From NCBI GenBank assembly GCA_003116975.1, contig BGKB01000018.1, positions 744,001-808,000 on the forward strand: 64,000 bases of DNA, read 5' to 3'. The notes under the pieces were generated by a model. It was not told where the DNA came from, made no database searches, and saw only the letters and a list, made by a program, of their open reading frames with translations. Positions 5,919-37,594 of the stretch are shown here, piece by piece (the first letter of the stretch is position 1; every line of letters begins with the position of its first letter). The translations under genes were made by a program, and so were the position numbers. This DNA is from Aurantiochytrium sp. KH105. Taxonomy: Eukaryota > Sar > Bigyra > Thraustochytrida > Thraustochytriidae.

Positions 5919-7148
5919 ATGCAGGTCGCAACGTCGAACCCCTCGTTCCAAGGCAACGTGGTCTCCACCGTGGACCTTAACGAGTCAGAAGGCCGCAACT
6001 GGAAGCGCATCGCGCTCAAGTCCTTTGTAGCACTTGGCGTGGTGGGTGTTGCCGCCGGCGTTGGCTTCGTTGTTGGTCAGTCGAATTCCGGCACCAGCGA
6101 CGACGATGGCGCCTCTGCCTTGGGCGCTGTTGCGGAGGCCCAGGCCACCCTCAAGTCTGCCTACTTCGACGAGGAAAACCCGGTCTTCACCAACAACTTG
6201 ACCATCTCCGAGATCAACGATCTCATCGACATGTACGAGGCCGCAGACGACTGGGACGATCAATTCATGACCGTAGATATCATGAGCGCTCTCAAGACGC
6301 TTCGCGATGAGGAGCAGGGCCAGGTCCGCTCTCTTCGCGCGGCGGACGAGGACGAAGGAGAGTCCCTTCGCGCGCGGCGGCTTGCGCTGACCTCCAATCA
6401 GCAGACTATCGGCACCGTGGCCTGGGCCGAAGTCGAGGCTGCGGACTACTCGGGAGGACTCGTGCACGAGAATGACGCCGTCATCGTCTTTCGCAAGGCG
6501 GATGCCATCTACGGTTCCGCTGGCGGCACCACTGGCCAGGCGTGCTGGGTCATGGCGCAGGAGTCCGGCGACACTGCCGATTGGGTCGACAACTTCGACA
6601 CTGGCGATGAGACGGTCTGGAGTATCAAGAACTACTACCACCGCGCGGAAGCCTGCGGCTGCGAAAAGACAACATGGTGGTGGTGCTCGCAGTACTATGC
6701 ATGCTCGACATCTAAGGCGCATGGAGATGGCTTTGATGGCTTTGTCAAGCCGTACAACGCCCTGCGCTACCAGATTTACAGCAGGATCCAGTCGACCTGC
6801 AACTCGAACGATCGTCTCATCATTGCCGGGTACAGCCGCGGCGGTGGTGTTCTCAACGCCCTGGCCTACGCTATGTACAAGGACGGCCTCTGGTCTACAA
6901 GCAAGATGATGCTCGTCACCTTTGGTTCGCCTCGTGTTCTTTCTGACGGCCTTTCTGATGAGGTCCACGGCAAGTTTGAGCAGCTGCGCTTTGTCAACAA
7001 CGACGACGTTGTGCCCAGTGTTCCCTACGGCTGGATGGGCTACAAGCACTTTGGCACCAACAAGAACCGTAACGGCAACGAGGGCCGCGACTCCCCGGGC
7101 TTTTCCAGCTCCATTTCTGACCACACCAGCTACGGAGACTGGTTCTAA
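5919..7148 (+). CDS. Membrane-anchored class-3 lipase-like protein (paralogue B)
   Basis: Predicted 409-residue protein with the plan of paralogues A and C: a short cytosolic N-terminus with NPSF, a membrane anchor at about residues 32-54, an acidic/Ala-rich stalk, then a class-3 lipase-like domain. The nucleophile is Ser306 in GYSRGGG; candidate partners are Asp363 (DDVVPSVPYG) and His402 (DHTSYGDWF). The shared Cys/Trp patch ACGCEKTTWWWCSQYYAC comes before the nucleophile. The ATG at 5919 gives an N-terminus colinear with both paralogues. It is closer to paralogue C (10111-11346), with near-identical stretches at DNA level in the 3' third. Enzymatic activity and substrate are inferred from the fold only. 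Confidence 0.88.
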   Translation: MQVATSNPSFQGNVVSTVDLNESEGRNWKRIALKSFVALGVVGVAAGVGFVVGQSNSGTSDDDGASALGAVAEAQATLKSAYFDEENPVFTNNLTISEINDLIDMYEAADDWDDQFMTVDIMSALKTLRDEEQGQVRSLRAADEDEGESLRARRLALTSNQQTIGTVAWAEVEAADYSGGLVHENDAVIVFRKADAIYGSAGGTTGQACWVMAQESGDTADWVDNFDTGDETVWSIKNYYHRAEACGCEKTTWWWCSQYYACSTSKAHGDGFDGFVKPYNALRYQIYSRIQSTCNSNDRLIIAGYSRGGGVLNALAYAMYKDGLWSTSKMMLVTFGSPRVLSDGLSDEVHGKFEQLRFVNNDDVVPSVPYGWMGYKHFGTNKNRNGNEGRDSPGFSSSISDHTSYGDWF

Positions 7149-9596: not shown

Positions 9597-10110
9597 CTCC
9601 TCGCGCGAGGTTTTGGCCCAGCAGCCCGAGGGGAGGGGTCGATCTATCTTGGGCCAGGCAGCCGCGCCAGCTAGCGGACGGGCGGGCGAGCGGGCGAGCT
9701 CTGTGCATGCAGACATCGCGTCCGGCTCGGCATGTCATGAGGCAACGCCATGCAGCAGCTGGCAGCTGGCAGGTCGTGCGTCCATCGATTGATCAATCGA
9801 TCGTCTTTATGATCAAATCAATCGTGCCAACTGAATTCCGTATACTGTCCGCTCTAACCTGCCTGGGCAGGTCCCATGGCTTTCTGTTATTTAGCCGCGA
9901 CGACGAGGCTGCAAGGCGCGATGGATGGCCACTTTTGGTAGTAGCGAGGCCGACCGACTGAGATGGGCAGCAAAAGGCAAGCGACTACAGGACAAGCAAA
10001 GCAAGCAAGCAGAGCGAAGCAAGCAAAGCAAGCGAAGACCAAGCAGAAACCCAAAGCAAAACCCAAACAGCGCAAAGAGATCAAGACATCAATCAGCGAG
10101 CACGCCGAAA

Positions 10111-11346
10111 ATGCAGATCTCCGCCTCAAACCCCTCGTACCGGGGCGATGCTGTCACCGCCGTGAATGTCGACGAGTCCAACCAGGGCCGCAACTGGAAG
10201 CGCATCGCGCTCAAGTCTTTTGTCGCCCTCGGCGTCGTGGGCGTCGCCGCCGGTGTTGGCTTTGTCGCCGGCCAGTCCTTCGGAGGCTCCGGCAGCGATG
10301 ACAGCTCAGGTGAGCAAGCCGCTGTGGCACAGGCCCAGGCCACTCTCAAGTCTGCCTACCTCGACGAGTCCAACCCCGTTTTCTCCAGCAACCTCACCAT
10401 CACCGAGATTAACGAGCTCATTGACATGTACGAGGGCGCGGACGAGTGGGACGACCAGTTCATGACCTCCGATATCATGAGCGCTCTCAAGACGCTTCGC
10501 GACGACGAGCAGGGTGAGGTCCGCTCGCTGCGAGCCTCCAGCAACAGGGAGGAGAACTTTGAGCGCTACCGCAAGCTTGCGCTCTCCTCGACCCAGCAGA
10601 CCATTGGCACCGCCGCTTGGGCTGAAATCGATGCTGCCGACTACTCCAGTGGCATCAAGTACGAGAACGACGCCGTCGTTGTCTACCGCAAGACCGATAC
10701 CATCTACGGTACCTCGGGTGGCACCACCGGCCAAGCGTGCTGGGTTCTCGCGGAGGAGAGTGGCCTCGATATTGCCGACTGGATTGACAACCTCGACCTC
10801 GGCGACGAAGACATTTGGAGCATCAAGAACTACTACCACCGCACGGAAGCCTGCGGTTGCGAAGATTGGACTTGGTGGTGGTGCTCCAAGTACAAGGCCT
10901 GCAGCAGGACCAAGTCCCATGGAGACGGCTTTGATGGCTTTGTCAAGCCGTACAACAACATGCGCTACTCGATCTGGAGCAGGATCCAGTCGACCTGCAG
11001 CACGAACGATCGCCTCATCATGGCTGGCTACAGCCGTGGTGGTGGCATTCTCAACAGCCTGGCCTACGTCATGTACAAGGACGGCCTCTGGTCGACCAGC
11101 AAGATGATGCTCGTCACCTTTGGCTCGCCGCGTGTTCTTTCTGACGGCCTTTCCGACGAGGTCCACGGCAAGTTTGAGCAGCTGCGATTTGTCAATGATG
11201 ATGACATTGTGCCCAGTGTCCCTTACGGCTGGATGGGCTACAAGCACTTTGGCACCAACAAGAACTCCAACGGCAACGAGGGACGCGACAAGCCTGGCTT
11301 CTCGTACAGCATTCCCGACCACCTCGGCTATGGCAGCTGGTTCTAA
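10111..11346 (+). CDS. Membrane-anchored class-3 lipase-like protein (paralogue C)
   Basis: Predicted 411-residue member of the local lipase family. The N-terminus MQISASNPSYRGD aligns with A and B, which fixes this start; the open frame runs 62 codons further upstream through AAGC-type repeats. A hydrophobic anchor lies at about residues 35-57. The nucleophile is Ser308 in GYSRGGG, candidate acid Asp365 (DDDIVPSVPYG) and candidate His404 (DHLGYGSWF). The Cys/Trp-rich patch is kept (ACGCEDWTWWWCSKYKAC). The copy lies about 3 kb downstream of B in the same orientation, as expected from tandem duplication. Likely a type II membrane hydrolase; substrate unknown. Confidence 0.88.
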   Translation: MQISASNPSYRGDAVTAVNVDESNQGRNWKRIALKSFVALGVVGVAAGVGFVAGQSFGGSGSDDSSGEQAAVAQAQATLKSAYLDESNPVFSSNLTITEINELIDMYEGADEWDDQFMTSDIMSALKTLRDDEQGEVRSLRASSNREENFERYRKLALSSTQQTIGTAAWAEIDAADYSSGIKYENDAVVVYRKTDTIYGTSGGTTGQACWVLAEESGLDIADWIDNLDLGDEDIWSIKNYYHRTEACGCEDWTWWWCSKYKACSRTKSHGDGFDGFVKPYNNMRYSIWSRIQSTCSTNDRLIMAGYSRGGGILNSLAYVMYKDGLWSTSKMMLVTFGSPRVLSDGLSDEVHGKFEQLRFVNDDDIVPSVPYGWMGYKHFGTNKNSNGNEGRDKPGFSYSIPDHLGYGSWF

Positions 11347-36309: not shown

Positions 36310-36775
36310 ATCCTCGTGCTCTACCGTCAAACCGAACGCATTCACTCCAAGCTTGCTAAGAAGACCCTCCGTCGACCCTACCTGCGCAAACTCTGGCGCA
36401 TCAAGAAGAAGATCGCCGAGTGCCACCGCAAGCTGGCGCTCGAGCTCTGTGCTGCGTCCTCGAGACGCCACTCGCAAGATCAACAGAATCACTCGCAAGA
36501 TCAAGGGAAAATTGCGCCCACGTCAAATATGCCAAAGGGTGCATTGCAATTTACGAGCGATGCTCAAGTCCAACACGAGCAATTCGAATGGTATACATAC
36601 ACCATCGTTGTTTGCAACGAGGCTTACACCTCGAGGACGTATGACGAGTGCGGCCACATCAACAACTTCATCGGGGGCAGCCAGGTCTTCCGCTGCCCCC
36701 CATGCTATACCACCACGCCAACCGTGACATCCACGCTGCTCGTGGCTACGTAACCAACGAACTGCATCCCTGAGA
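36310..36775 (+). pseudogene. Decayed Fanzor/TnpB-like nuclease, C-terminal part
   Basis: Blocks typical of the Fanzor/TnpB C-terminus lie in order on the plus strand but in different frames. A basic helix IKKKIAECHRKLALELC (from about 36400) is followed by a helix with RITRKIKGK and LRAMLKS (about 36485-36575). Next comes VVCNEAYTSRT, a zinc-ribbon remnant YDECGHINNFIGGSQVFRCP (from about 36634), and finally NRDIHAARGYV (about 36720-36750), which corresponds to the last RuvC motif (D-R-D-x-N/H-x-A-R). The first ribbon Cys has become Tyr. At least two frame changes are needed and no N-terminal half is found, so this is a broken fragment. Fanzors are eukaryotic RNA-guided nucleases carried by transposons; no transposon ends or guide RNA are identified here. 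Confidence 0.75.
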
Positions 36776-37594
36776 GACCAGGTTTTTACACCCGGACACG
36801 AGTTTTAACTCCCCCGCGTTCCCCAATCAACGCGAATGGGCCTACTGACTGTGAGGTTAGAAATTTTGATAAAGGATGTCCGTGCTTCTCTTTTTTACGT
36901 AGTATACCTTCTCACGCCAATCAAGACACAGTCGCTTGTTCAGATACCAGCCAGCCACTCCGAACCGCCCGTCAAGGCGCAGCGCCCAGCACAGCACAGC
37001 ACAGTACAGCACAGCCCAGCCCTGCTGCCGCTCCGCTGCGGCTCCGCAGACCAAGCTATTCCCAGAGCTAACTAGAGCTGCCTGCGCAAAGAGCGCGCGC
37101 GCCACGGTCGCCGACCGGCACTGCACGGACGGGCCATTCGCCCCTTTCTTTATTGACTCACCCTTCACCCGGCTTCTTCCTGCTCCGCTCCCTCCTCCGT
37201 TCTCTGCTTCCGCGTCCCTGCTCCTCGACGCCGCCGCGCCGCGGAGCCCGCACCGGCCACGGCCAGCCGCGCGCCGCTCGCCGTGGCCGCTGTCTCGGCT
37301 GTCTCGGCTGTCTCGGTCTTCAAGTTGGCGTCTCGGCGTCTTGGCAGGCCGTCTTGGCGTCTGCACAAAGTTAGCTTGGCTTGGCTGGCCGGAGCGGCGG
37401 CCGGTGGCGGCTGCGGGCGGCTGCGGCGCACACGCACAACGTGTCTATCCTTTCTCGCTGTCTGTCTCTGTCTGTCTGGCTGTTGCCACGTCTGTTTGTG
37501 TGAGACAGCCACCAGTAGCGGATTGGCGGAGGAGACCGGGCAGGAGGCGTAGCTGCTGCTGCAGAAGCGGCAGGCCAGCGGGGCGAGCGAGCGT

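Follow-up and report, generated by a model that had tools for sequence, protein, structure and literature searches.

Remnant of a Fanzor-type nuclease gene in an Aurantiochytrium genome that also carries IS607-type Fanzor2 elements

Fanzor2 nucleases encoded within IS607-type elements are known from eukaryotes and large viruses (Bao and Jurka 2013, PMC3627910; Yoon et al. 2023, PMC10711439). The IS607 TnpA protein performs serine recombination at matching dinucleotides (PMC6188088, PMC10711439), and the genes of these elements "often overlap" (PMC6188088). Our literature search, which left most subscription papers outside, returned no work linking Fanzor with Labyrinthulomycetes or with Aurantiochytrium. 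We analyzed a stretch of 64,000 nucleotides (the window), located at C18:744001-808000 of a 76 Mb assembly, and found that a TnpB/Fanzor nuclease gene is represented at positions 36319-36752 of its forward strand by its C-terminal part. With a probability of roughly 0.88, we regard this stretch as a 5'-truncated and decayed copy of a Fanzor gene, most likely Fanzor2, from an IS607-type transposon.

The PF07282 model matches the remnant with 28.9 bits, above its cut-off of 26.3, in agreement with the initial annotation, which had proposed a relic of a Fanzor/TnpB nuclease with three hallmark motifs in the right order; all three are present. A profile was also constructed from three Fanzor2-type proteins of the same genome and eight bacterial relatives. 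The first motif, a basic helical stretch at 36319..36453 (+, frame 0), scored 11.9 bits with this profile (E 0.0074). It had been described as preceding the nuclease lobe; its alignment with intact genes places it between RuvC-I and the zinc ribbon and therefore inside the RuvC lobe. The second, at 36586..36717 (+) and in the frame of the helix, comprises the displaced glutamate (NEAYTSRT) and the zinc ribbon, reads EAYTSRT...GGSQVFRCPPC, and scored 43.3 bits (E 2.3e-12). Its first ribbon cysteine is a tyrosine, as expected from the reported loss of one ribbon cysteine. The third is the RuvC-III motif NRDIHAARGYV, including its RD, at 36720..36752 (+), which was recovered by three-frame translation in a frame different from that of the ribbon. 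The claim that the motifs occupy different frames thus applies to NRDIHAAR only, since helix and ribbon share a single open frame of 155 codons. Taken alone, the NRDIHAARGYV piece, too short for a profile match, matched no family. Upstream of 36319, no profile or tblastn match fitted the RuvC-I aspartate or the N-terminal half, and tblastn with the TnpA proteins of the three related families of this genome (A, B and C, below) found no match near the remnant. A possible trace of the right end of the element, CTGAG..AGGTTTT, lies at 36770..36786 (+) and recurs at the right end of family B; this pattern, picked post hoc, occurs once in the window, at 36770, where 0.07 occurrences are expected, and at least once in 7 of 100 shuffles.

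Because neither RuvC-I nor TnpA is left, the type of the remnant was deduced from its nearest relatives, and because TnpA is absent next to it, we file it as a Fanzor remnant for which Fanzor2 is just the most likely type. We ranked 119 of 120 proteins (one shorter than 150 amino acids was omitted), including those of 37 of 45 viral loci, against the window copy and against a second copy on contig C11; 108 matched the former and 109 the latter. Family A ranked first of 108 for the window copy, with 60.8 bits, and tenth of 109 for the C11 copy, with 58.2 bits, where cyanobacterial proteins lead with 59.7; families B and C ranked far lower than A. By protein search, the closest match within this genome, apart from the remnant pair itself, is the family A gene on C201 (E 1.5e-11, 35% identity). 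These rankings place the remnant near Fanzor2 and pro-Fanzor proteins, yet not clearly as a decayed A, B or C. Direct descent from family A was considered and is unsupported, its rank differing between the two copies. An alternative is that the remnant is the relic of a Fanzor1 gene borne by another DNA transposon. The surviving parts (displaced glutamate, ribbon and RuvC-III) would permit this, as they are common to Fanzor1 and Fanzor2 (PMC10711439, PMC3627910), but the nearest proteins found, in a comparison set without Fanzor1 proteins, were those of family A, which is of the Fanzor2 type, and IS607 relatives from cyanobacteria. We therefore consider a Fanzor1 origin improbable and, within the limits of that set, a Fanzor2 origin likely; an IS607-type original element may be deduced from the same sequence relatives.

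The counterpart region on contig C11 (C11:178000-185000, L031) contains the same remnant, in which the first ribbon cysteine is kept and the reading frame is interrupted by three stops (two TGA and one TAG) as well as by frame shifts. These lesions and the truncation of the window copy bear out the description of the locus as a fossil. Compared over 7 kb, the window and C11 show 7.0% substitutions and 6.8% gaps, and the ECM29 gene beside the remnant is paired between C18 and C11 at 98% amino acid identity and at nearly equal distance. Since the same remnant occupies the matching region of C11, its insertion probably predates the divergence of the genome copies to which C18 and C11 belong. The 155 codons still open in the window copy could be taken to indicate a domesticated fragment that is still expressed and under selection. 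Against this stand the stops and frame shifts of the C11 copy, the missing ribbon cysteine of the window copy, and the lack of either a codon-position pattern (substitutions between the two remnants at 14/129, 8/128 and 15/129 positions) or special conservation, with the ribbon at the 20th percentile of the local difference between the window and C11. Continued selection is thus very unlikely. The remnant is dead in both copies and has decayed without visible constraint, and most likely does nothing today.

A resemblance by chance, or to an unrelated zinc-ribbon gene, is suggested only by searches with isolated pieces. The 36-residue ribbon piece alone scored 25.4 bits against PF07282, just under the cut-off, and the 154-residue frame alone had no significant match in the PDB (mimivirus L79 at E 0.38, below a chance match at 0.18) or in NCBIfam; among the matches listed from phage records, one weak match, to a Microcoleus phage, fell below 0.001 (E 4e-4). 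However, the pieces are colinear with intact genes, tblastn with the family A nuclease gives E 1.5e-12 in an alignment that spans the basic helical stretch, and when a 3-kb stretch was shuffled 100 times under a first-order Markov model, the top domain scored 6.0 bits, compared with 43.3 for the remnant. At such significance this explanation is refuted, and with it the possibility, raised at the outset, of no profile match or of an unrelated ribbon gene. A bacterial TnpB on a contaminant contig, as the many cyanobacterial proteins among the nearest relatives might suggest, is equally remote, being refuted by the eukaryotic neighbours of the remnant in the window (genes for ECM29, Sec5, Spc25, a myosin head and an ODAD1-type protein) and by its presence on two contigs with the same neighbours. 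The window also contains two Lipase_3 genes close together, at 5919-7148 and 9925-11346.

Duplication is not confined to the region of the remnant, as matches to a PUFA-synthase model occur on five contig pairs (C72/C155, C290/C61, C27/C56, C98/C89 and C137/C124); none of the 24 matches listed exceeds the model cut-off, the best reaching 930.4 of 1010.1 bits. Large parts of the genome therefore seem to be present twice, as two haplotypes or a hybrid. In combination with the Lipase_3 genes, which PMC6841712 links to this group, a split PUFA synthase is suggestive of a thraustochytrid host. The genome searches, across the 76 Mb assembly, scored the best candidates only, so that the counts for PUFA synthase, PF07282 and PF00239 are lower bounds.

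Intact relatives had been anticipated elsewhere in the genome, and they were found. At least 25 PF07282 matches are present, consisting of the remnant pair and 23 matches in three families, and nine of them lie in long open nuclease frames of 513-679 amino acids. By DNA comparison, family A has two copies that are 98% alike (on C200 and C201) and family C accounts for 17 matches; family B has four copies, on C165, C242 and C266 and, interrupted by N, on C27. The DNA of families A and B is about 69-75% alike. In all three families a serine-recombinase TnpA (PF00239) lies upstream of the nuclease and overlaps it in another frame, and all 17 PF00239 matches listed for the genome sit at loci of these families. 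Five elements (on C21, C165, C201, C242 and C266) combine a long open nuclease frame with a stop-free TnpA match. Three loci (L015, L016 and L032) contain runs of N that break their sequence and another (L018) starts at a contig end, and their truncation may therefore be a matter of assembly. The aligned representatives of A, B and C (3/3) have DPG in RuvC-I, lack the canonical glutamate and have the displaced glutamate. These residues are the Fanzor2/pro-Fanzor signature given by Yoon et al. 2023 (PMC10711439). Between subgroups of family C, dN/dS was 0.37-0.39 in all four pairs, which points to purifying selection; six young pairs ranged from 0 to 1.69, with few changes, and are uninformative, and the six pairs of A with B were saturated. 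Three family C copies (L013 on C73, L030 on C9 and L018 on C356) adjoin a tandem satellite of about 306 bases, recognized from the offsets of repeated matches, that is common to their contigs.

For the family B insertion on C242, the corresponding site on C48 is uninterrupted, with 92% identity over the whole query of joined flanks. Given this empty site, the C242 copy probably transposed when the two genome copies were already separate, and the window remnant is probably older. Neither a target duplication nor inverted repeats were seen at this insertion, and its junction could be placed only to within one or two bases, too coarse for a GG core. No clean empty site was obtained for one family A and one family C insertion, whose flanks match their counterpart contigs only piecewise and in opposite orientations. 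The left flank of the family A insertion recurs, inverted and 100% identical, at a distance of about 7.5 kb (C200:90475-90672 and C200:98202-98388). A foldable segment ending AGGTTTTAA..TAGCG is common to the right ends of families A and B; of its 35 consensus pairs, five change on both sides, and the covariation term is 0.08 from two lineages only. A structured guide RNA at these ends is thus suggestive only.

By analogy with known elements, TnpA would have moved the DNA of the original element by serine recombination, and the nuclease, with a right-end RNA as its guide, would have cut the empty site so that the element could be copied back. Such an IS607-type element would have entered the lineage, probably before the C18 and C11 copies parted; about two thirds of its nuclease gene, from the 5' end, and any TnpA would then have disappeared, and the remnant decayed.

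To place these elements among relatives, we used an alignment of A, B and C to query prokaryotic genomes, where 244 of 296 candidate stretches encode relatives, of which 80 were kept. The best 40 of these are all cyanobacterial, the first seven being 36-37% identical in their best segments. Two scans of viral contigs returned no relatives, and a third with a broader alignment returned 45. The phylogenetic tree was constructed from 87 proteins after near-copies and short sequences had been thinned out. Families A and B joined a viral contig sequence (L126) on a long branch with support of 100/94, and this group was sister to a cyanobacterial clade (95/97), whereas family C formed a very long branch that cannot be placed; because of these long branches, the exact positions of L126 and of C are unsure. 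The L126 gene is of the Fanzor2 type, keeps the N-terminal motif described below, has no TnpA match, and groups with A and B. The best solved relative of both A and C is mimivirus L79 (PDB 9b0l; E 8e-22 for A and 9e-27 for C).

The overlap between tnpA and tnpB was surveyed in 100 of 125 relatives (64 of the 80 genome loci and 36 of the 45 viral loci, among L037-L116 and L118-L154). TnpA matched upstream of the nuclease in 93, with the nuclease in the +1 frame relative to TnpA in 90 of these and a median open overlap of 565 bases (350-700 in 86 of 93). The nuclease frame contains a P[YF]W...SWF[ST]-like motif in 71 of the 100 relatives; among the seven without a TnpA match, two (L126 and L142) keep it and five do not show it. 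Within the present genome, the motif is found in all five A and B copies examined (L009, L010, L020, L021 and L022), and the three family C copies examined show the PFW part only. The Pfam and NCBIfam TnpB models begin after this N-terminal extension, as does the alignment to L79. We then compared TnpA codons in bacterial and viral-contig relatives only, with 17 disjoint pairs among 59 TnpAs that show the motif; four of these pairs had no codons outside the overlap, and the other 13 were used. Differences at the wobble position numbered 244/757 outside and 214/1343 inside the overlap, being lower inside in 12 of 13 pairs; second positions gave 73/757 and 71/1343, and first positions 102/757 and 198/1343, respectively. 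The wobble position of the nuclease frame coincides with the first codon position of TnpA, so that constraint on both frames would be expected to produce this distribution. The overlap in these bacterial and viral-contig relatives therefore behaves as if under dual-coding constraint, judging from codon differences. Neither of two papers listed by a literature search on dual coding contained the term "dual-coding".

One tentative reading, to which we give somewhat less than an even chance, is that IS607-Fanzor2 elements invaded this lineage repeatedly, leaving the old and extinct lineage of the remnant, the ageing multi-copy family C, and the young families A and B, which may still be moving. 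In the same reading, the nuclease of A and B has an N-terminal extension in a second frame of tnpA, and selection on the overlap ties both genes together.

Taken alone, the remnant is a commonplace fossil of a transposon, and its worth is as a pointer to other elements. It led to a protist genome in which a transposase and an RNA-guided nuclease, both unbroken in appearance, occur in the same elements, and which also offers one insertion with its empty counterpart present. Should this protist prove to be a thraustochytrid that can be cultured, it would allow a direct test of whether a eukaryotic Fanzor2 aids the persistence and spread of its transposon.

Compared with described systems, the IS607-Fanzor2 elements of this genome are further members of an already known kind. 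They share with Fanzor2/IS607 elements the DPG motif, displaced glutamate, C4 ribbon, RD motif and overlapping serine-recombinase TnpA, and likewise, at the one family B insertion, show no inverted repeats or target duplication; the window copy differs as a dead fragment, and the elements here are multi-copy, their three families accounting for at least 23 matches in addition to the remnant pair. The cyanobacterial IS607 TnpBs, called "pro-Fanzors" in PMC10711439, have the same tnpA/tnpB overlap, whereas the families described here sit in a eukaryotic nuclear genome. Fanzor1 has the displaced glutamate, ribbon and RD motif in common with them (PMC3627910, PMC10711439) but rides other kinds of transposon.
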